From a virus, in IMG/VR virus record IMGVR_UViG_3300028388_004364, positions 1-20,393 of that record: a stretch of 20,393 nt of DNA; one strand, written 5' to 3'. Position 1 is the stretch's first letter. Every line of letters begins with the position of its first letter. Position numbers and translations under genes: made by a program. This document shows positions 4,439 through 20,393 of this stretch, piece after piece. The notes below the pieces were generated by a model that was not told the origin of the DNA, ran no database searches, and saw only the letters and a list, made by a program, of their open reading frames with translations.

Positions 4439-5677
4439 ATGTCACCGCAGGATTACGGCGATATCCAGTACCTCTCTGAAAGCATGAATGAGGTCGTAGC
4501 CAAAATTTGGGGCGAAAACTTCATGGAATTTGCGCAGAGCATGATTACTTGGGGTGCAAATGTGAAGGACGGTTTCATCAACCGTGTCACTGCAGGCCGT
4601 CATCTCACCCATGAGCACAAGCACCTCCTGCACCGCCGCGAGGACATCGGATTTGACGGCCTTGCAATGAAGTACCGCCCGCACAACCCAAAGGGCCTCA
4701 ATGTCACCGACAAAATCTTGTCCTGGTTACCGGAGGCTGAACGCAAAATCCTGGCTCTCTGTATCGGTCGTATCATGAACAATGATGACGGCAGCACATG
4801 GCGCACGGTACCCATCATCAACGGTCGCCCCGGCCTCGGTAAGACGATGTTTGTCAGCAAGCTGGGACGTCATCTGGAACGCCTCGGATGCGTTGTTGCA
4901 CACATTGGAGCACCCATCGACCGTTTCACGTTCAACATCGAGAACGCGGCCGCTGACTTTTGGATTACCGATGACACCTCCCGCTCCGACATTGAGGGCC
5001 TGACACGTAACAGCACCTTCAAGTCCCTTGCATCCAACAGTGACACCGTCGTGGAGGACAAGTATGTCCAACCCGTCACTGTGAAGCCCTGTGGTAGCTG
5101 GTTCATGCTCGGTAATGCCATCCACCGTAACCACCTGATTGGTGCTGACCCGGGTGTGTTAGACCGTATTGCAATACTGCAATGTAACCCAGAAGACACC
5201 CGTAGCACCGACGTAATCGAGAAGGACGCTTGCATGCAACTAGGCATGGATGCTACCGCCCTGTGGGAGGAGCTGCTGGCTGAGTGCAGTGCCTACTACC
5301 GTCAAAACGTTGGTAATATGGAAAAGGCTATCAACGACTTGCGTAATCACTGCATTGAACCACCCACCGAGCTGCCCCTGGCTGAACTTGCAGCTATCGG
5401 TATCGTGTTGCATCACACCGCAGATAGCGATGGGAACCCGTTTGTTGAATGGAGCCTGGACACAATCCTGGAAAGCATTGCCGTCGGTCAACACTGGCTC
5501 CCACAGTCCCTGGTTGACAGCCTGCAGTGCATCCAATGGAAAGCAACGGTACGCTCCATCCGCCGTCGTTCAAACATGGGTGTGGAGCCATCCCCTAAAA
5601 CCATGACCCAGTACATCCGTACCACCGACGGTCACACCCTGCCCTCTACCATGGCGCCTTACGCTCAATCAGTGTAA
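4439..5677 (+). CDS. Superfamily 3 (D5/primase-helicase type) ATPase
   Basis: 412 residues from the ATG at 4439. Walker A is NGRPGLGKT (residues 128-136), a Walker B-like ADFWITDD lies at 172-179, and FKSLASNSDT...SWFMLGN (194-226) fits the SF3 motif region ending in the sensor Asn; PGVLDRIA carries a likely arginine finger. SF3 enzymes unwind DNA as hexamers at replication forks and often carry a primase or DNA-binding N-terminus. The same frame is open upstream to 4358 and, across a TGA, to the ATG at 4253, so the annotated start may not be the native one; the site before 4439 has only a weak GGAAG. The 3' end overlaps the convergent gene at 5665-6189 by 13 nt. Confidence 0.85.
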   Translation: MSPQDYGDIQYLSESMNEVVAKIWGENFMEFAQSMITWGANVKDGFINRVTAGRHLTHEHKHLLHRREDIGFDGLAMKYRPHNPKGLNVTDKILSWLPEAERKILALCIGRIMNNDDGSTWRTVPIINGRPGLGKTMFVSKLGRHLERLGCVVAHIGAPIDRFTFNIENAAADFWITDDTSRSDIEGLTRNSTFKSLASNSDTVVEDKYVQPVTVKPCGSWFMLGNAIHRNHLIGADPGVLDRIAILQCNPEDTRSTDVIEKDACMQLGMDATALWEELLAECSAYYRQNVGNMEKAINDLRNHCIEPPTELPLAELAAIGIVLHHTADSDGNPFVEWSLDTILESIAVGQHWLPQSLVDSLQCIQWKATVRSIRRRSNMGVEPSPKTMTQYIRTTDGHTLPSTMAPYAQSV

Positions 5678-6528: not shown

Positions 6529-6586
6529 CGCTCCTGACACACGGCCCTAGTAACCAGGGTGTCGCGAGCGCAGCGAGCACAGCGAC
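6521..6586 (+). repeat. Post-stop hairpin repeat, full length (copy B)
   Basis: GTCGCTAGCGCTCCTGACAC through GTGTCGCGAGCGCAGCGAGC (6521-6579), extended by ACAGCGAC whose AGCGAC (6581-6586) pairs with the first GTCGCT. Stem pairs visible: GCGCTC 6528-6533 with GAGCGC 6566-6571; GACAC 6536-6540 with GTGTC 6559-6563; CCT 6546-6548 with AGG 6556-6558. It contains the stop codon of the gene at 6199-6528 and precedes the ribosome binding site at 6601. Confidence 0.9.
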
Positions 6587-6615
6587 CGCACACACAACTT
6601 TTTGGAGATTATGTA

Positions 6616-7116
6616 ATGGCTAGACTATCATTCACCCAGCAATTGAAAGTGGGTAAACAACTGGAGGAATACCTGCTGGAGATACTGGGTGCTGAACCCG
6701 TTGATATGGAACAGCAACGCCGGGGTATCGATATGGTCTGTAGCAACGGTGTTACAGTCGAGGCAAAGCTGGACGTCCGAGGTGCCAAAAGTGGTAACTT
6801 CTTTGCTGAATTACAGACTGGTAACAAGCCGGGGTGCATGTTTACGTCCACTGCTGACATCATCGTTATCTGCATCGGTAGCCCCGGCAACTATCCGATG
6901 TTTTTGACGAACAGTTCCCGGTTTTCGGCGGCAATGATTACATTCAACCAGAAAAAGCTGAAAACCGTGACATGCCGTAATCCTGGAGGCTACAGCTCCA
7001 AGGGGATGTTGGTACCTTTCCGGTTATTGAAAGAATTCTGTGTTATAGTGGAATCGGAGTCTCAATTTATCGAGTATGTCTCTGATTACAGTTTACGATT
7101 TAGAAAGGCGTCATAG
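6616..7116 (+). CDS. PD-(D/E)XK nuclease-like protein
   Basis: 166 residues from the ATG at 6616, chosen because it has TTTGGAG 10-15 nt upstream (6601-6606) and because the longer frame to 6559 would run through the repeat. RRGIDMVCSNGVTVEAKLD gives the spaced D39...E49-A-K51 of the PD-(D/E)XK fold, with a preceding helix containing EEYLLEIL that can supply the first acidic residue. Such enzymes include resolvases, recombination exonucleases and restriction enzymes; the position directly before the polymerase suggests a role in phage DNA processing or recombination. A 41-nt overlap with the polymerase start indicates coupled translation. Exact substrate unknown. Confidence 0.8.
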   Translation: MARLSFTQQLKVGKQLEEYLLEILGAEPVDMEQQRRGIDMVCSNGVTVEAKLDVRGAKSGNFFAELQTGNKPGCMFTSTADIIVICIGSPGNYPMFLTNSSRFSAAMITFNQKKLKTVTCRNPGGYSSKGMLVPFRLLKEFCVIVESESQFIEYVSDYSLRFRKAS

Positions 7117-9478
7117 CCCTCCACAGCCATCTCAGGGGGTCAAACAGGCCCTCGAGATGCACGGTCTCTCATTAGAGTACCGATACACCGACAAACTACC
7201 CATTGAGGGCGTTTCCATCGATGACCTGCATACAGGGGCGGTGGACACCTTCAATGGGTTGCTTTTTGATGTGAAGGTCCCACAAAACATTGGTTATGTA
7301 GCAACGCTGGAGAGGGGCCTCTGGTACTATCAACCACATGGTAGTAGTGAATGGGTGGCAGTAGCACCGCCCTGCAATGAGTATTTAGTCCTAGATACTG
7401 AGACATACGGCCTTGCACAATCACGGCCCGCAATCGCCGTTGCAGCCTGCAGCCGTGGTACCTACGCATACGTGCACACGCCGCACCATAACCCACACTC
7501 GCTGGAGAGCCGGATACCACTGGGTGATGGCAATGTTGTTGCAGGGTGGAACGTGTCGTTTGACCGGGCACAGATGAGAAGCACTTTCCGCTACCATGAC
7601 GACAACCTGTGGCTTGATTACATGTCTATCATTGTGGCAATGCACGGTCACAGCAATCAGCAGGCAGGCTTAGTGCGCAAAATTCAGTCAGGAAAGTGCG
7701 AGTATGTGCCTGAATGGTACGAGCATGTCTGCGGCCGTTCCCTAAAGGCTGCTGCTCAATATTTTGGCCTCTCAGTGGACAAAAGCCAGCGTGACATCAT
7801 CGTCGATGAAGGGTACGCGGCGTTCAAAGGCAACCTGTTGCACGATAGCATTCAATACTGCTTTGATGACGTGCTGTTGACTGCAAAGGTGGGACGCCTG
7901 ATGATTGCAGCGGCCTTACGGTGGTACCATCCAGTTTCGTTGCGCGCCCTGATGTTACGTAACACCCAGATTATGCCGTTGTCAGAGGCGTGGGTGGATT
8001 ACCTGGACCGTAATGAACCAGAGAGTGAAGCCATTTTGGAACGGGTGTCACAGTTCATCCTCGACAGGGCTGATGCACTGCTGGAAAGCGGTCCCACTAC
8101 GGAGCAGCACGAGGAGTTGGACTGGACCCTGTTGAAGGCGGGCAAAAACAAGGGCCTCCCACGATGGTATGTTGACATACGCAAGAACCCCTCTTTAGGC
8201 GTCCGTGTTGTGCCCTACATCATCGGCCTGCATTACCGGGGTGCACCGATGTTCCTGGATGACAACAAAAAGTGGGTCGCAGGCGGCAAGCATGTGCCAC
8301 ACCCTGAAACCGGGCTACCGATATCAAATGCGTTCGTCAAAGGCAGTCGGTACGAGGGTGACGGGCTATCTGACCTGTTGACTGACGTGGAAAGCCTTAC
8401 CAACTGGAAGTCGATGCGTAAACAGATTGCTGAAACCACCTATGTGCGCGGTGAAGACGGCACTGTGTGGCATTGCCCCCGTGTTGTTGCTTGGGGTACC
8501 ATCAGCCGCCGTGAAGCCTCCAGTATCTGGATGCAGGTGCCTAACCCTAAAGAGCACCGCCTGGGTACCGAGGCACGCATGTTAATCCAGGCCCCTAAGG
8601 GTTACACACTGGTAACGTTTGACGTGGACAGTGAAGAGGCTATGATTGCGGCGATTATGGGTGATGCACACGCCCCTAGTGATTACCGCATGGACATCAA
8701 GGAGCCACTGCCTGGAGCCACCCCGTTCTCGTTGTCAGCGCTTGCAGGCGACAAGGGTGAAGGCACAGACATCCACTCACTGGCTGCTAAAAAGCCCGGC
8801 ATCGCCCGTGCAAGTGCAAAGGGCTTAGTGTACGGCGGCCTGTATGGACAGGGCGTTAAGGGGGCATCTGACAGCCTCTACAAAGCAGGTGTGGCTCCAG
8901 AGGACTGTGACCGTATTGCACAGGAGTTTACCGCCGGGTTTAAGGGTGTCAAACGCGGTAATGCATACCACGGCGGGCTGGCATCATACACGTTTACGGC
9001 CCTGGATAACCGGGGTGACTGGAACGCTAAAACACTAGCATTCAACCATCCATTACCCCGCAGTTTACAGGGGCACGAGGAGTTTGCCACAACCCGGAAA
9101 AACTGGGTCATCCAATCCACTGGCTCCGACATCCTGGACATCATAACCACCGTCTTTGACAATCTAGCCACAAGTGAAGGTATCCGATATCGCTTCGTGA
9201 TGTTCCATCATGACTGCGTTAGTGTGATGGTAGAGGACGATGCAGCCCTGACTGAACGTGTTGCAGTGTTGTTACAACGCGCACACGCAACCGCATGGCT
9301 CCACATCTACCAAAAACTGGGTTTCAAGGTGGTACCTACCAAGGTGTTGATTGCATCATCAACAGAGGTGGGTCCACAATACAAACATGGAAAAACTCCA
9401 AAATATTCCGTGAATCTTCCGGTTAAGGAGTTGTACCCCTCGGATATTAGCAGTAGTTACTGGAATAACAAACAATGA
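7076..9478 (+). CDS. Family A DNA polymerase, mitochondrial Pol gamma-like
   Basis: 800 residues with 3'-5' exonuclease and polymerase domains. Exonuclease: DTE (D107, E109), GWNVSFDRA (D163) and YCFDDVLLT (D265), equivalent to D198/E200, D274 and D399 of human Pol gamma. Polymerase: motif A FDVDSEE (D516), motif B R578-x3-K582-x3-Y586 (RASAKGLVYGGLYGQG), motif C HHDC (D713). Features shared with Pol gamma but not with T7 or Pol I include GTISRRE before motif A, QAPKGYTLVTFDVDSEE, GTDIHS before motif B and NWVIQSTGSDIL after it, and a Pol gamma-like spacer between the domains. In motif C the usual Glu after HD is Cys714. Start 7076 lies inside the nuclease gene; a later start is possible. The stop overlaps the next ATG (ATGA). 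Confidence 0.95.
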   Translation: MSLITVYDLERRHSPPQPSQGVKQALEMHGLSLEYRYTDKLPIEGVSIDDLHTGAVDTFNGLLFDVKVPQNIGYVATLERGLWYYQPHGSSEWVAVAPPCNEYLVLDTETYGLAQSRPAIAVAACSRGTYAYVHTPHHNPHSLESRIPLGDGNVVAGWNVSFDRAQMRSTFRYHDDNLWLDYMSIIVAMHGHSNQQAGLVRKIQSGKCEYVPEWYEHVCGRSLKAAAQYFGLSVDKSQRDIIVDEGYAAFKGNLLHDSIQYCFDDVLLTAKVGRLMIAAALRWYHPVSLRALMLRNTQIMPLSEAWVDYLDRNEPESEAILERVSQFILDRADALLESGPTTEQHEELDWTLLKAGKNKGLPRWYVDIRKNPSLGVRVVPYIIGLHYRGAPMFLDDNKKWVAGGKHVPHPETGLPISNAFVKGSRYEGDGLSDLLTDVESLTNWKSMRKQIAETTYVRGEDGTVWHCPRVVAWGTISRREASSIWMQVPNPKEHRLGTEARMLIQAPKGYTLVTFDVDSEEAMIAAIMGDAHAPSDYRMDIKEPLPGATPFSLSALAGDKGEGTDIHSLAAKKPGIARASAKGLVYGGLYGQGVKGASDSLYKAGVAPEDCDRIAQEFTAGFKGVKRGNAYHGGLASYTFTALDNRGDWNAKTLAFNHPLPRSLQGHEEFATTRKNWVIQSTGSDILDIITTVFDNLATSEGIRYRFVMFHHDCVSVMVEDDAALTERVAVLLQRAHATAWLHIYQKLGFKVVPTKVLIASSTEVGPQYKHGKTPKYSVNLPVKELYPSDISSSYWNNKQ

Positions 9479-9792: not shown

Positions 9793-10553
9793 CCGCCGTA
9801 GGTAGGATAGATACGCACCCCTACCGCAATGGCACCGGGTGTTGTCGGTACATTCCTCCAACCCTCCTCTTTAAGGGCCTTTTCGACTGATAGGACCGAT
9901 AGGGTGTTGTCACCAAAAGTCCGTCCAAAAACAGGTTTCATGACGAACTCATTGACCGCCCATGCACAGGATAGCCGTCCGTTACGGGTGGCAGGCGGGC
10001 TGGGTGGGTTACCGCTCTTCTTACCTGTGTTTGATATGGCTGCATCAACCATCTGCTGCAGTATAGGGGCATTAGGGTTTAGGGGCCTGCTACCGCCTGA
10101 TGTGACGGCCCCCTGTACCTGCGGCGGGGGTGGCACCTTGACGTCAGCCTCCTGTGGCTTGTAGACGGTCAGTTCCATCAGGCCGTCACCCTGCCGCTTG
10201 ATACCGTCGACAATGTAATCGCCTGTGGGACGTAGGTGTTCAGATTGCACGTAATCACCTACCCTGATAGGTGAGTCAGGCACTGTTAAGGTAGCCTTAT
10301 GCCCCTTAACGAGACCGTCTTTGATGATAGTCAGGGACGTAACGGGGCTGTCGGACTGGTTGACGTTCAAAACATCCCTGAGTACCACACGACGCCTGTC
10401 CTCGTCCTTCACGTAGATAAGTGATGCCCCGTTGTCTTCACTGACCGTTTCACCGTCTTGTGGCTCGACTGTCAAGGGGCTACCAACCAGCTCGGACGCC
10501 TTACGGTAACCAACCGCCTCAATCCTGATTGTACCGCTGCCACTGACGTGCAT
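9714..10553 (-). CDS. Baseplate hub-like protein with NlpC/P60- or CHAP-type hydrolase
   Basis: 279 residues from ATG 10553-10551. The N-terminus MHVSGSGTIRIEAVGY matches MQVIVGPIRIDNVVGY of the upstream gene. Residues 40-135 are β-rich with RVGDYVQSEHLRPTGDYIVD, like the hub (gpD/XkdQ-type) fold. A PPPPQ linker (141-145) leads to a C-terminal cysteine peptidase-like domain: Cys196 in LSCAWAVNEF, His255 in GGHIGIIVG and Asn269 in LSNSS, consistent with a peptidoglycan amidase/endopeptidase that opens the wall during DNA entry. It overlaps 10519-11298 by 35 nt and the convergent small gene by 79 nt. Family assignment rests on motif order only. Confidence 0.8.
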   Translation of the reverse strand: MHVSGSGTIRIEAVGYRKASELVGSPLTVEPQDGETVSEDNGASLIYVKDEDRRRVVLRDVLNVNQSDSPVTSLTIIKDGLVKGHKATLTVPDSPIRVGDYVQSEHLRPTGDYIVDGIKRQGDGLMELTVYKPQEADVKVPPPPQVQGAVTSGGSRPLNPNAPILQQMVDAAISNTGKKSGNPPSPPATRNGRLSCAWAVNEFVMKPVFGRTFGDNTLSVLSVEKALKEEGWRNVPTTPGAIAVGVRIYPTYGGHIGIIVGPNDDSLSNSSSRRLLLPR

Positions 10554-11298
10554 AGCCCGCTATCTTGGAGGCCCTATCGGTGCCGTTGATGATACGTCTG
10601 GCACCCACAAAATCGACACGACCGGGTCCAATGTAGTCGGATAGGCTTTTGCCCGTGAAGACACCTGTACGGCTACCATGGACCAATACGAAGCAGCTTA
10701 GACCATAGTCTTTAACCATCAGGGTGTAGTCGGTAAGCAGGGGTTGCCCTGTCAAGTCCTGATAGCGTTTGTAGTTAAACCTCCACGTCAACTGGACTAG
10801 GCCCCTACCCCGGTATGGGTCGTATCTGAAGGGGCCTCCAAATTCCGTAATCGGTATGAAGAAGCCGTTTTTGCCGTTCACCTTACCCAGGTTGCTGCAC
10901 TCATGTTGTGCCGTAGCCAGGACATAGGCTATCTGGTTCCTGTCCGTGACACCCTGTCTCAAGCACTCCCGTATGATGCATTGGATGCGTACCCGTTCAC
11001 TGGCAGGTACCGGGAACGATGGGACCCCTCGAGACGTGAACCGCACCGGGGGCATACCATCCACACCCTGTAGCGACACCTGGCTGTTGACAGAGCTGCC
11101 CTGGGTAGGCGGTGTCGGTTGCGGCGGTGTAGGCACAATGATGCCCTTAGTCGTCTTTGCCAGGGACAGTAGGGCCGTCAGCAGGCCGTCGCTGTATGGC
11201 ACCTCAAATGAGTATTTATTACTACCTCCATCAGCCGAAAGTGTCACATCGTAACCTACCACATTATCGATGCGGATAGGTCCCACAATCACTTGCAT
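10519..11298 (-). CDS. Baseplate protein with GH19 (chitinase-like) lysozyme domain
   Basis: 259 residues. The ATG at 11298-11296 has a perfect GGAGG (11308-11304) 5 nt upstream and aligns with the start of the downstream paralogue; the ATG at 11310 inside the Shine-Dalgarno region is rejected. Residues 1-50 are a β-strand hub-type module; a Pro/Thr linker (PTPPQPTPPTQG) follows. Residues 100-258 match the GH19 muramidase/chitinase fold: catalytic Glu133 in ATAQHECSN, YRGRGLVQLTW (162-172), and a C-terminal RRIINGTDRASKIAGY helix. Probably cuts wall glycan during injection or lysis. Transcribed with 9714-10553 away from the palindromic element. Confidence 0.88.
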   Translation of the reverse strand: MQVIVGPIRIDNVVGYDVTLSADGGSNKYSFEVPYSDGLLTALLSLAKTTKGIIVPTPPQPTPPTQGSSVNSQVSLQGVDGMPPVRFTSRGVPSFPVPASERVRIQCIIRECLRQGVTDRNQIAYVLATAQHECSNLGKVNGKNGFFIPITEFGGPFRYDPYRGRGLVQLTWRFNYKRYQDLTGQPLLTDYTLMVKDYGLSCFVLVHGSRTGVFTGKSLSDYIGPGRVDFVGARRIINGTDRASKIAGYARQWQRYNQD

Positions 11299-11325
11299 GC
11301 TAGCCTCCATTTTGACTTACAAATC

Positions 11326-11499
11326 GCTGAAACCCTTATTATCTCGTTCATTTTTTATAAAAAATTTCTGTAAAGTGTGCAGTAGGGCGGTGGGACCCTC
11401 TTTTTTATTATCTAGTAATAAATAAATACTAGCGTGCACCTTGTTCACACTTTTGGAAAATTTTTGATAAAAAATGAACGAGACAATAGGGGTTTCAGC
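11326..11499 (-). repeat. Palindromic element, right copy (174 bp, inverted)
   Basis: Begins GCTGAAACCCTTATTATCTC and ends AATAGGGGTTTCAGC; the core (GTGGGACCCTCTTTTTTATT...TACTAGCGTGCAC) is the reverse complement of the core at 2577-2751, so the two copies are inverted. It lies between divergent genes 10519-11298 and 11600-13459. The right arm contains an ATG (11474) in frame with the Asp-rich gene, but all four arms of the two elements encode the same MNEI(I)-like string, so this ATG belongs to the element rather than the gene. The rest of 11311-11599 holds only the promoter at 11528. Confidence 0.9.
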
Positions 11500-11527
11500 C
11501 GTTTTACCGCGAGTTACCCACTATTGG

Positions 11528-11556
11528 TTGACGTTTCCACCTGACCGTGATATATT
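11528..11556 (+). promoter_or_regulatory. Sigma70-type promoter for the Asp-rich gene
   Basis: TTGACG (11528-11533), 17-nt spacer, TATATT (11551-11556). The -35 TTGACGTTTCC is shared with the leftward promoter at 2467 (TTGACGTTCC). Transcription would start near 11563, downstream of the element ATG at 11474, so the first usable start is ATG 11600. Confidence 0.75.
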
Positions 11557-11599
11557 GAGACAGTACAGTAATATCGACGGACAAAGGTACCACAACATT

Positions 11600-13459
11600 A
11601 TGCGTACAACAACCACTGAACGCTTCACAACAGCCCTTAGCACCCTCCTCCACGCTGATTTTGGGGCTATGACATACCCGCAGTTAAAGAAGGCTGCAAA
11701 GGGCCTTATCATGAAGCCACATAAATTGTCACACGGGGAGCTGTTGGAGGAGCTGTCCCAGTTACGGGAGGTGTCACAGCAGATTATTGAGGGTCCCACA
11801 ACCGAGCGCCTGCCCCTCCGTCTATGGGACTACCAGAATGAGATGCCCCGCCTAGCCACTGTAATGACGCAAGAGGAACGCCGAAAGATGAACCGTAAAA
11901 ACGCCCTTAAACGCCTCAAAAAAGTGTTCAGCGAGGAAGAGTTCAAAAAGATGTCCCGTAGCTCCCTGAACCGCCGTATGGGTGCCTCTCTGAACGTGTA
12001 TCGCAACGAGAGTGCCAGTGTATGGTTCAACCTGACCGATACCACTATCCACTTGCTTCAGGTTGAAGGCACCTTGGAAGGCTGTGAAGAGGGCGACATC
12101 GATACCGACAGCGTGGACATCCTGTCCTTTGACTGGAAGAACCTCCCTGACCTGAAAAAGATTGTCACCCAGGTCCTTGACTCCCGCTCCGACGATGAAG
12201 AAGGCCCTGATGATGACGGCCCTGATGAAGGCCCTGATGATGACGGCCCTGATAACCATCAGCAGCCTGACGATAATCAACAGCCTGATAACAGTCAACA
12301 CGATGACAGCATTGATGAGAATGATAATACTGGCACTGATATTGTCCCTGATGATGACAGTGCTTGTGATGAAGCCCCTGGTAATGATGACCCTGACGAC
12401 AGTGCCCCTGACATTGACGATAGCCCTGATGAGCCAGTAGATGATAGCCAGGGTGACGCGGAAGAAACGGGCAAGCAGCGGTTCTTTGAAGGGGGTGAGG
12501 AACATAACTCGGACAAGCACGCAGAGCTGCTTAACGACATTTTTACCCGGGTACAGCAGCAATTGGACCTCCAACCAGCCAACATGTCATGGTCTGAAGA
12601 GGTGGCATACGAGGCACACAAGATGCTCAAAGAGGCCCCGTTCGAGGTACCTGGGTTGTGTCTGAACCATGAGTTTCAACTGCAGTTCACAATTGAACGG
12701 CGCCCCTACTACTACACGATAGACGAGGACAGTTGTTCAGCCACCTTCCAGTGCATGTTTGAGGAGCGGGATGACGCGAAAATCCCGGTGTATTTCGAGA
12801 GCGACAATGTCATCAGCGCTGCAATGTCATTACGGTTCGACGTTGAACGGGCCTTGGACATCGACGTCCCTAAAGACCGATTTGTGGGACTACCCACTGC
12901 ACAGGAGATTGACGGTCGCTCCGCTCCCGAAAACGGCCCTACCAACCAAGGTGTCGCGAGCGTAGCGAGCGCTAGCAGTGTGTATGAAGCGTATTTCCGC
13001 ACCCTCCAGGACCTGGGTGACCCTGCTTTCAGTGCAGCGGGTGAACAGGGTGGCACCTTTGTTATGACCATTAACGGCAAGGCATGCACCCTCGGTATCT
13101 CTCCCACCCATACCATGCGCGGTAACTTTGAAGGCAGCCAGGAAGTGGGTGGCAAATACACCTACACCGCGATGTGTGACCGTTCACGGCAACGCATCAA
13201 GACCGATGAACCAAAAGACACCTTGGTCATTATGGACCTGCTAGTGCGCACGATAGGCCCCGCTGATGCCCTGTATGATGTGTACGATGACATCAATCTG
13301 ACCAAGTGCATCACCGAGGACACCGTTGCCTACTTCGTCATCCAGCCTGATGATACCTTTGCTATCCACGTCATCAAAGACGGCAACAAGGACGATTACG
13401 CGGTCCTGACATTGGATGAGAACGGTACTGTGCAACCACCTATCGCCTCCATCCGCTAG
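11600..13459 (+). CDS. Asp-rich hypothetical protein with embedded repeat
   Basis: 619 residues from ATG 11600 (MRTTTTERFTTALSTLLHAD). The frame is open to 11474, but that start lies in the palindromic element and upstream of the promoter at 11528-11556. Order: a basic helical N-terminus (residues 1-150, with RRKMNRKNALKRLKK), an Asp/Pro/Gly/Asn-rich acidic region (about 195-290) built from GPDDDGPDE-type repeats, and a folded C-terminal half. Residues 439-458 (GRSAPENGPTNQGVASVASA) are encoded by a copy of the dispersed hairpin repeat. I recognise no family. The acidic tract could mimic DNA or bind basic partners, but this is speculation. Ends at a half-repeat and a strong bidirectional terminator. 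Confidence 0.85.
   Translation: MRTTTTERFTTALSTLLHADFGAMTYPQLKKAAKGLIMKPHKLSHGELLEELSQLREVSQQIIEGPTTERLPLRLWDYQNEMPRLATVMTQEERRKMNRKNALKRLKKVFSEEEFKKMSRSSLNRRMGASLNVYRNESASVWFNLTDTTIHLLQVEGTLEGCEEGDIDTDSVDILSFDWKNLPDLKKIVTQVLDSRSDDEEGPDDDGPDEGPDDDGPDNHQQPDDNQQPDNSQHDDSIDENDNTGTDIVPDDDSACDEAPGNDDPDDSAPDIDDSPDEPVDDSQGDAEETGKQRFFEGGEEHNSDKHAELLNDIFTRVQQQLDLQPANMSWSEEVAYEAHKMLKEAPFEVPGLCLNHEFQLQFTIERRPYYYTIDEDSCSATFQCMFEERDDAKIPVYFESDNVISAAMSLRFDVERALDIDVPKDRFVGLPTAQEIDGRSAPENGPTNQGVASVASASSVYEAYFRTLQDLGDPAFSAAGEQGGTFVMTINGKACTLGISPTHTMRGNFEGSQEVGGKYTYTAMCDRSRQRIKTDEPKDTLVIMDLLVRTIGPADALYDVYDDINLTKCITEDTVAYFVIQPDDTFAIHVIKDGNKDDYAVLTLDENGTVQPPIASIR
12203..12256 (+). repeat. Short tandem coding repeat GGCCCTGATGATGAC
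   Basis: Units of 15, 12, 15 and 12 nt starting GGCCCTGAT encode GPDDD, GPDE, GPDDD, GPDN. Looser CCTGA units continue to about 12436. Slippage-prone; length variation between isolates would be expected. Confidence 0.8.
12915..12972 (+). repeat. Hairpin repeat inserted in frame inside a gene (copy C)
   Basis: GTCGCTCCGCTCCCGAAAAC, then GGCCCTACCAACCAAG, then GTGTCGCGAGCGTAGCGAGC, a full-length member carrying several substitutions. It lies within the 619-residue gene, in the sense direction and open in frame, with flanking coding sequence continuing on both sides. Confidence 0.85.
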
Positions 13460-14630: not shown

Positions 14631-15776
14631 TTACTGACCGGGTACCTGTAGTGTCGGTCTGATGATAATCTTTTCAACAGAGGACGCAGGCTGTGTCACA
14701 ATATCCATGAACAGGATGCCGTTCGCTAAATCTGTCACATTGTTGTTGGAACTGTCACAGGTCACCTCGTAGGCGTCACGGGGTGTGTTACCTACCAAGG
14801 CCCCTAGGTTGTAGAGGCGCCGCATAACCTGATTTGCCATGTTGGACGCAATCAGGTACAGCATGCCCTGGTTGTCAGCCCGTCCGAAAAGGATACGCTC
14901 TGCCTCTACTGTCAACGTGTTACGAATAACGCTGATGATAATAGCAGAGTTGATAAAGGGCCGCCCGGTACCCAGTGTACGGGCACCCATAACCGCGATA
15001 GCCCCTGCACGACTACGGGTAATCAGATTGACCCCTAGGGCCGTCAGGTGCTCCCAGTCAGTATCGGACACCGACAATGGCTGTGTGACACCCCGTAACG
15101 GATAGGCGGTACCTGCAGGGCTTTGTGCAATACCGTCCTGTTGCCACACAGACAGGGCAAGGGCCGCTACAGCAGAGGACGGAGGTACCAGTGTACTGTC
15201 TTGGTCCACCCACGGGAAATACAGGGCCGTGTTCTCCATAGGGGATATGTTACTAGCAAAGCCCCTGATGCCAGAGGTACTGTCAGCACCCACTACATCC
15301 TTTACGTCGTCTGGAGGGTCGATGATAGCAAAGAGTCCCGTGCGTTGCGCTGCCGTATCAACATACCCGGTCAAAATCTCATAATCGATGTCAGTTGATG
15401 CAGTGGCATACGCCCGTGGCAAACACAGGATGCCACTCACATTGCCGGGTAGCGACTGTAAGGCTGTCTGCCAGTCATCATGCCGGGTAGAGGCGTTACC
15501 TACCGTCTCTTCAACATTAACAAACAGCAGCGTGTTCCAGTGCTGGAAGAACAGTGCCACATCGTCCCGTGATGGACTATCGGACCCAAAGGCAGCATCA
15601 AACTCATCCAAGCTGTTGATACGTATTGCAGTATTGAAATTAGTAATGTCAGTACCACTTGTTCCCGGCAATCCTAGCATGTACACCTCGTTAGGGACTA
15701 CCAGTGTTACGGGTTGGTTATTTGCCGTCTGCGTGACGTACACACCCGGTCTGTTAGGGACATTAAAGCTTGTCAT
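14631..15776 (-). CDS. Contractile tail sheath protein
   Basis: 381 residues. The N-terminus contains RPGVYVTQ (residues 9-16), the hallmark first strand of phage and contractile-injection sheaths; VYMLGLPGTSG, FFQHWNTLLFVNVEE, the central LYFPWV segment, and the C-terminal GVNLITRSRAGAIAVMGARTL-type core with FINSAIIISVIRNT and MDIVTQPASSVEKIII follow the order of the family. The size is at the short end for sheaths. The ATG overlaps the stop of 15773-16054 by 4 nt (ATGA on the minus strand), so translation is coupled. Sheath plus tube makes the virus a myovirus. Confidence 0.92.
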   Translation of the reverse strand: MTSFNVPNRPGVYVTQTANNQPVTLVVPNEVYMLGLPGTSGTDITNFNTAIRINSLDEFDAAFGSDSPSRDDVALFFQHWNTLLFVNVEETVGNASTRHDDWQTALQSLPGNVSGILCLPRAYATASTDIDYEILTGYVDTAAQRTGLFAIIDPPDDVKDVVGADSTSGIRGFASNISPMENTALYFPWVDQDSTLVPPSSAVAALALSVWQQDGIAQSPAGTAYPLRGVTQPLSVSDTDWEHLTALGVNLITRSRAGAIAVMGARTLGTGRPFINSAIIISVIRNTLTVEAERILFGRADNQGMLYLIASNMANQVMRRLYNLGALVGNTPRDAYEVTCDSSNNNVTDLANGILFMDIVTQPASSVEKIIIRPTLQVPGQ

Positions 15777-18453: not shown

Positions 18454-20393
18454 ATGGCGAGTAACAATGTAAACGTAGCCCTTAACGCTGTCGACAATGT
18501 AACCCCGGCATTGGAGGGCATCACAGCCCGTGGTACCATCATGGGTAACGTGATTACCGGGGGCCTACAGCAAATAGGTGCTCTGGCTGGTAACGTATTC
18601 AACGGCATGCGTAACCAGTATCAAAACGCTGCAGACACCCAGATGTCGTTCATCGGTACCGCAGGCTCCCTGATGGGTGTATTGAACCAGAGCTATGACG
18701 AGGCCCTGGATACCACCATGCGCCTGAACGAACAGTTTGTCGAGCTAGGGGCACAGCTACCGGGCACTGCAGAGGACTTCTCATTCATCGGTCAAAGCAT
18801 CTCAGACGACCTGTTTAACGCCTTTAGGGATGCCAGTGGAGCCATTGACATGACGGCTGCTGAAGACACCCTGATGAACCTGACTGAGAAGTGGGGCCTC
18901 TTTGCACAACAGACGCAGACGACAAGCGCACAGGCGTCACAAAACCTGGTACGTCTGATGTCAGGTGATGTCAACGTGTTGCGTATGGTCCAGTTTGACA
19001 AGTCCCCTGCCTTCAAGAACGCCCTGGAACGGGTACTGGCAGCAGACCAAAAGACACGCGATGACTGGGAGGACGCTACCACAAGACAGCGTGCTGAGTG
19101 GATTGAACAGGCTGTCAGCATGACCATACCGCCTGAAGCAGTGGAGGCTATGAGTGGTACCATCAGCGGTACCATCAACCAGTGGAGAAGCAGCCTCTTT
19201 GATGCCACTAGCGGTGTCTTCGGCTTCCTTAGGGAGATTGAGGGTCGGAGCACTATCATGGAGGCCCTGGAAGGTATCGTGCAGTCCACAAACGACATGG
19301 TAGGTGTCATTGTGCAGCTTTGGCCCTTCAAAGGCGATGTGCTGGCACCGTTGTATGATGCCCTACGGTGGATACAGAGCCAGATTGACAGCGCAGTCAA
19401 CATACTGAACCCCGGTGATGTGGTATCAGGCCTGGAGGAAGGCTCCAAGCAGCTATCAGAGGCTATCGGACAGTCGTTACGTAGGGCGGCTATGCGTGCC
19501 ACTATCGGAATACGGGACATCAGTAGGGTGCTGTCGGACATCGACTTTACCACCGTGTTTTCAGGCATTGTGAACCGTGTCACACAGGGCATGGAGAACC
19601 TGGGTATCGACATGGGTCAAGTTAACCTAGGTAGTGTCACCCAGGCCCTAGCTGGCTACATGAATGACTTCCAGACACTGAGTCACTCAGTAGGGTCCAG
19701 TATTATCAACGGCCTGCTAGCACTGTTCAACCACCTGGTTAATGCAGTTGCAAACATGCAATTTGATACGTCCATCATATCAGGGGCCAATTTTGGGGCG
19801 ATGATAGGTAGGGTTGTGGGACGCAACATCTCATGGCTGCTGGCACGCACTATCGACCTGATATCAAACATCGATTACGGGGCTGTCAGACGCGCTACAT
19901 TCAACATTTTGATGGGTGTAGGAGGGGCCTTTATTGGACTGGTAGCGGGGCTATCACAGGGTTTTGTGTCAGGGCTACCAGATGTCCTATCATCAATCGT
20001 GGGTAGCATAGGCTCCGTCAAGACGATGGTAGACGGTGTCATGAGTGGCTTCTTCAATGGGATGGTAGCTGCCGTGACATGGATTGACGGTATAGCGCGT
20101 CCAATAGAGCTTTGGGCCGCCCGTGCAGACGCCTCCATAGCTGAGTTTGCAGCGTCAGCAGATGCAGCCATATCAGGTGCCGTAGTAGCAACCGTTGAAG
20201 GTGTAGCGGCATTTGCATCAGGCTTAACAGACATACCTAAAGCCTTAGTGGCAGCCATTAAAAGTGCAGCAGACCAAGTAAAGTCAGCTATGAACGGCCT
20301 TGCAGCACCCATCCTAGCCGCTGTCAAGGGCATATTTTCAGGTGTCACAACTGCCATCCGTAACGTGGGTAACCGTGTCACCTCGTTGATACC
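18454..20393 (+). CDS. Tail tape-measure protein, 3' end outside window
   Basis: Open from ATG 18454 to the window end, at least 646 residues with no stop in this frame (checked by translating through). It starts MASNNVNVALNAVDNVTPAL, then a central section with ATEDTLMNL- and SGTISGTINQWRSSLFDATS- and GVFGFLREIEGRS-type segments characteristic of phage tape-measure proteins, and a hydrophobic patch AFIGLVAGLSQGFVSGL near residues 490-510 of the sort used in membrane passage. It sets tail length and may aid DNA injection. A plausible GCGAGG lies 10 nt before the ATG. The two open frames on the opposite strand at 18792-19613 and 19875-20381 are shadows of its codon bias. Confidence 0.85.
   Translation, partial: MASNNVNVALNAVDNVTPALEGITARGTIMGNVITGGLQQIGALAGNVFNGMRNQYQNAADTQMSFIGTAGSLMGVLNQSYDEALDTTMRLNEQFVELGAQLPGTAEDFSFIGQSISDDLFNAFRDASGAIDMTAAEDTLMNLTEKWGLFAQQTQTTSAQASQNLVRLMSGDVNVLRMVQFDKSPAFKNALERVLAADQKTRDDWEDATTRQRAEWIEQAVSMTIPPEAVEAMSGTISGTINQWRSSLFDATSGVFGFLREIEGRSTIMEALEGIVQSTNDMVGVIVQLWPFKGDVLAPLYDALRWIQSQIDSAVNILNPGDVVSGLEEGSKQLSEAIGQSLRRAAMRATIGIRDISRVLSDIDFTTVFSGIVNRVTQGMENLGIDMGQVNLGSVTQALAGYMNDFQTLSHSVGSSIINGLLALFNHLVNAVANMQFDTSIISGANFGAMIGRVVGRNISWLLARTIDLISNIDYGAVRRATFNILMGVGGAFIGLVAGLSQGFVSGLPDVLSSIVGSIGSVKTMVDGVMSGFFNGMVAAVTWIDGIARPIELWAARADASIAEFAASADAAISGAVVATVEGVAAFASGLTDIPKALVAAIKSAADQVKSAMNGLAAPILAAVKGIFSGVTTAIRNVGNRVTSLI

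Follow-up and report, generated by a model that had tools for sequence, protein, structure and literature searches.

DNA polymerases of the Pol gamma type are already known in phages, having been published for A-HIS1/2, S-TIM5, S-CBWM1 and Mic1. In 2020, the Mic1 enzyme was proposed to share its origin with mitochondrial Pol gamma (PMC7156551). The gene itself was published in cyanophages in 2011 (Chan et al., as cited in PMC7156551 and PMC4928673), which, as far as these citing papers report it, answers the question of earlier phage homologues that the initial annotation of the present locus had left open.

The locus described here lies in a viral window (the whole stretch of DNA analysed, 20,393 bases) that encodes an enzyme with the same domain order as these cyanophage polymerases, including the Pol gamma exonuclease and spacer; A-HIS1, Mic1 and S-CBWM1 likewise carry a D5-like primase-helicase related to that of the window. 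With a probability of roughly nine in ten, we read the 800-residue product as a genuine Pol gamma that branches deep in the family and serves a contractile-tailed cyanophage as its replicative DNA polymerase. What would be new, judged from sequence comparison, is the branching depth of this polymerase, together with stronger though not conclusive evidence for a phage-rooted family.

Motifs and spacer of the phage polymerase

The polymerase is encoded by a single ORF (Table 1). Its exonuclease motifs, in ORF numbering, are LDTET for Exo I (D107, E109), NVSFDR for Exo II (D163) and YCFDD for Exo III (D265). The spacer carries RWY and PMF segments and is followed by GTISRRE at residues 474–480. 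Motif A reads DVDSEE (D516, E521), with GTDIHS behind it, motif B reads AKGLVYGGLYGQG (K582, Y586, Y590), followed by NWVIQSTGSD, and motif C reads HDC, with D713 and a cysteine at residue 714 in place of the usual HDE. The motifs that had been lined up by eye with human Pol gamma are all present and in the Pol gamma order, and each of the family signatures that surround motifs A, B and C was found (GTxxRR, GTDxHS and NWxxQS(T/S)). The motif B tyrosine is shared by the window enzyme, the mitochondrial enzymes, Mic1 and S-TIM5, and is absent in A-HIS and S-CBWM1.

Table 1. Features of the window, with positions numbered from its first base.
Feature	Positions	Strand	Details
DUF5906/D5-like primase-helicase ATPase	4439–5677	+	PF19263, 1.3e-7; upstream of polymerase
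ORF overlapping polymerase start	6559–7116	+	overlap of 41 bases; GID...VEAK...SGN motif, by eye
Pol gamma-type family A DNA polymerase	7076–9478	+	800 aa, ATG to stop: N-terminal part, exonuclease ~80–272, spacer ~280–465, polymerase domain ~466–765
Pol gamma-type 3'-5' exonuclease domain	7307–7891	+	residues 78–272; PF18136, 3.3e-21; Exo I–III acidic residues kept
Spacer/thumb region	7913–8470	+	residues 280–465; first ~130 residues homologous to Pol gamma spacer; without large animal POLG insertion
Polymerase palm/fingers	8471–9370	+	residues 466–765; motif A D516, motif B K582/Y586/Y590, motif C D713; E 9e-48 against mitochondrial profile
Chitinase/lysozyme-like C-terminal domain	10519–11310	-	phrog_181 endolysin, 1.4e-16
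661-aa protein	11474–13459	+	long Asp/Pro-rich low-complexity middle
Contractile tail sheath	14631–15776	-	phrog_17610, 3e-35; 33% over 96% to Leptolyngbya phage Lbo402-yong5
Tape measure protein	18454–20391	+	runs off window end; 22% over 594 aa to Lbo402-yong5 tape measure; phrog_167 weakly

In animal POLG, a large insertion in the spacer bears the accessory-binding and processivity parts. This insertion was not found in the window spacer, in which 209 residues separate Exo III from GTISRR, compared with at least 384 in human; the same distance is 304 residues in yeast and about 245–294 in the other phage enzymes, and yeast and the other phage members are also without most of the animal insertion. 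The spacer, called long in the initial annotation, is in fact short, and the proposed ‘end to end’ likeness to Pol gamma stands for the motif order and for most of the length, but not for the large insertion of the human enzyme. The shortening is not confined to this region: the window enzyme has 800 residues compared with about 850–990 in its cyanophage homologues, and 106 residues precede Exo I compared with 131–169 in the complete phage members. A further departure from the mitochondrial system concerns the accessory subunit, as no sign of a POLG2-like partner was seen within the 20,393-base window.

The shortened spacer and the HDC motif C, together with a long branch and the lowest identity among the family members, could mark a decaying or repurposed, fast-evolving polymerase that no longer serves as a replicase. 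We consider this highly improbable. The frame is open over 800 codons, the metal-binding Asp/Glu residues are all retained (D107, E109, D163, D265, D516 and D713), and no second polymerase occurs within the window, a 20-kb fragment. The third residue of motif C also differs in other phage lineages, being HDS in 166 and HDE in 13 of 187 phage Pol gamma ORFs; variation at this position is thus found among enzymes that are presumably active.

Homology and predicted fold

T7 DNA polymerase and bacterial Pol I share the family A core and the DEDD-type exonuclease chemistry with the Pol gamma family. The window ORF might then be a phage polymerase of the ordinary T7-like or Pol I type, resembling Pol gamma in no more than the motifs common to all of family A; motifs A, B and C are indeed present, and the Pfam DNA_pol_A match falls slightly under the cut-off (32.7 of 34.3 bits, 5e-8). 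Four profiles were compared with the ORF and its pieces: mitochondria-only (human, mouse and yeast Pol gamma, copied from PDB alignments), phage Pol gamma-only, Pol I types and T7 types. The mitochondria-only profile scored 213 bits over residues 81–411 and 466–762, and the phage-only profile 318 bits over residues 78–766, whereas the Pol I (19.5 bits, residues 500–773) and T7 (3 bits) profiles matched in the catalytic core only. When searched alone, the spacer (residues 280–460) matched the mitochondria-only profile with an E-value of 5e-10 and the phage profile with 3e-14, but neither the Pol I nor the T7 profile; among 20 shuffled spacers, used as a control, the lowest E-value was 0.02.

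The exonuclease part behaves likewise, matching the Pol gamma profiles and not those of Pol I or T7. PF18136, the Pfam family of the mitochondrial polymerase exonuclease, matches the window ORF but none of T7, E. coli Pol I and the Leptolyngbya phage polymerase. In a phmmer search of the PDB, the top matches were yeast Mip1 (1.3e-42) and human POLG (1e-38); Pol I followed as the best-scoring other family (0.015). From the profile coverage, homology extends across the exonuclease, 130 residues into the spacer and again across the polymerase domain, with a weak stretch at ~412–465. The likeness to Pol gamma first noticed by eye is thus borne out by the profiles and reaches beyond the universal family A motifs; on these sequence scores, homology to Pol gamma is far above chance. 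Membership among T7-like or Pol I polymerases is refuted by the spacer and exonuclease profiles and by the tree described below, which leaves that reading a negligible probability.

For an AlphaFold2 model, the ORF was aligned with 19 relatives of viral and metagenomic origin; the model has middling confidence (pLDDT 63, pTM 0.71). Foldseek ranked Pol gamma first with this model (1.4e-31, compared with 1.6e-13 for the best non-gamma structure). VIA-align 2 superimposed 726 of the 800 residues on mammalian Pol gamma (Z 24.3) and 513 on Pol I (Z 16.0), and identity to mitochondrial Pol gamma across the structure alignments is ~20–24%. The ORF is thus predicted to adopt the whole-chain fold of Pol gamma, and it has the same catalytic residues as human POLG and yeast Mip1.

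Relatives and position in the family A tree

A tblastn search of the phage collection matched eleven records, all cyanophages (A-HIS1, A-HIS2, the S-TIM5 group, S-CBWM1 and Mic1). Motif scans of IMG/VR found 56 loci by the exonuclease motifs and, by the NWxIQ motif, 222 related stretches, and the majority of the IMG/VR sequences retained cluster with S-TIM5; two further Mic1-like Pol gamma copies, 96–98% identical, occur in IMG/VR contigs L201 and L202. A single-sequence scan of IMG/VR returned no close relative of the window polymerase. Three profile scans of the same database with different motif sets yielded many Pol gamma genes but no closer relative, the best reaching ~34% identity in the polymerase domain and 41–42% across the best ~130 residues. 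Overall, the window enzyme is 22–27% identical to every other Pol gamma found, compared with 29–59% for representatives among themselves.

A scan of genome contigs pointed to Pol gamma genes in Vibrio, Shewanella and Rhizobium, which profile scoring (22–25 bits) assigned to ordinary family A polymerases. The only real one in that scan lies in a contig binned as Microbacteriaceae (L135, CALGUV010000039.1), whose genuine Pol gamma gene groups with the cyanophage S-CBWM1 clade. This contig may be a mis-binned cyanophage or may belong to an actinobacterial Pol gamma phage, which, if true, would break the cyanophage-only pattern.

A maximum-likelihood family A tree was built with ten outgroups (T7-like, Pol I-like and other phages). 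The mitochondrial sample consisted of three sequences (human, mouse and yeast) taken from PDB alignments, partly incomplete and without protists, and the Mic1 sequence was joined across an intron from two annotated ORFs, with part of motif A missing. All Pol gamma, the window included, form one clade apart from T7-like and Pol I polymerases (100/100 in the full tree and 100/100 with the polymerase domain only), which agrees with the family assignment made at first sight. Within this clade, the window forms the sister branch to every other Pol gamma, those of mitochondria included (92/96 full, 87/92 polymerase domain only). The mitochondrial enzymes are nested within the phage sequences as sister to Mic1 (100/98 full, 99/98 polymerase domain), and this Microcystis phage accordingly has an enzyme nearer to the human, mouse and yeast ones than to those of other phages. 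A clade made up of phage sequences alone was rejected whether the window was included (p 0.007) or left out (p 0.012).

Three other placements of the window were not rejected, namely with mitochondria and Mic1 (p 0.088), with A-HIS (p 0.051) and with the S-TIM5/S-CBWM1 clade (p 0.067). At 1.48 changes per site in the full tree and 4.05 in the tree restricted to Pol gamma, the window branch is long, and long-branch attraction could account for its basal place. The window sequence is the most divergent Pol gamma among those found here and appears to be their deepest branch.

The direction of transfer bears on the origin of the gene. A phage might have captured it from a eukaryotic mitochondrial Pol gamma: the sister relationship of Mic1 and the mitochondrial enzymes by itself gives no direction, and in the trimmed alignments, the single rows most identical to the window are those of mammalian POLG. 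A grouping of the window with mitochondria alone was rejected, however (p 0.011), and several deep phage lineages lie outside the group of mitochondria and Mic1, which makes a single phage-to-eukaryote transfer simpler; capture from a eukaryote is, on this evidence, highly improbable. In the fuller scenario that the tree suggests, Pol gamma would have diversified in phages, and the window enzyme would be the first representative known from a phage lineage that diverged ahead of every other Pol gamma, the mitochondrial enzymes among them. The root of the family would then lie in phages, and opisthokont mitochondria would have their replicase by capture from the phage lineage nearest Mic1. We regard this scenario as evenly balanced between true and false, and hold it with less assurance than the identity of the enzyme.

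Gene neighbourhood, host and proposed role

The D5-like primase-helicase encoded upstream of the polymerase has tblastn matches in the phage collection only in A-HIS1, Mic1 and S-CBWM1, all of them Pol gamma phages, and is a probable replicative partner of the polymerase. The ORF that overlaps the polymerase start matched no family in profile searches; its motif suggests a PD-(D/E)XK nuclease. The structural genes encode sheath, tube, neck, tape measure and tail fibre, and most are nearest to those of Lbo402-yong5 among the loci compared. These neighbouring genes indicate a contractile-tailed cyanophage, a myovirus nearest Lbo402-yong5, as the source and, the latter being a Leptolyngbya phage, a cyanobacterium as the most likely host. 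Lbo402-yong5 itself carries an ordinary family A polymerase and not Pol gamma, so the type of polymerase differs between related cyanophages.

Two other genes of the window deserve description. The product with a chitinase/lysozyme-like C-terminal domain is apparently tail-associated and matches a tail protein of Lbo402-yong5. The 661-residue protein, with its Asp/Pro-rich middle (DDDGPDEGPDDDGPDN...), matched no known family. No tRNA genes were found in the 20,393 bases.

In the proposed role, the polymerase would follow the D5-like primase-helicase encoded nearby as it copies the phage genome, and its own exonuclease would proofread. Because the accessory-binding and processivity insertion of animal POLG is absent, the enzyme would act as a single subunit, or with some other partner, and without the animal-type accessory interaction.

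The case for a phage origin of the mitochondrial replicase has been made on the basis of a few cyanophage sequences. An enzyme placed outside all others provides the family with an internal outgroup, which breaks the long branch to the other family A polymerases and lets the phage-to-eukaryote direction be tested with protist sampling. At 800 residues, the enzyme also offers a small Pol gamma for biochemistry.
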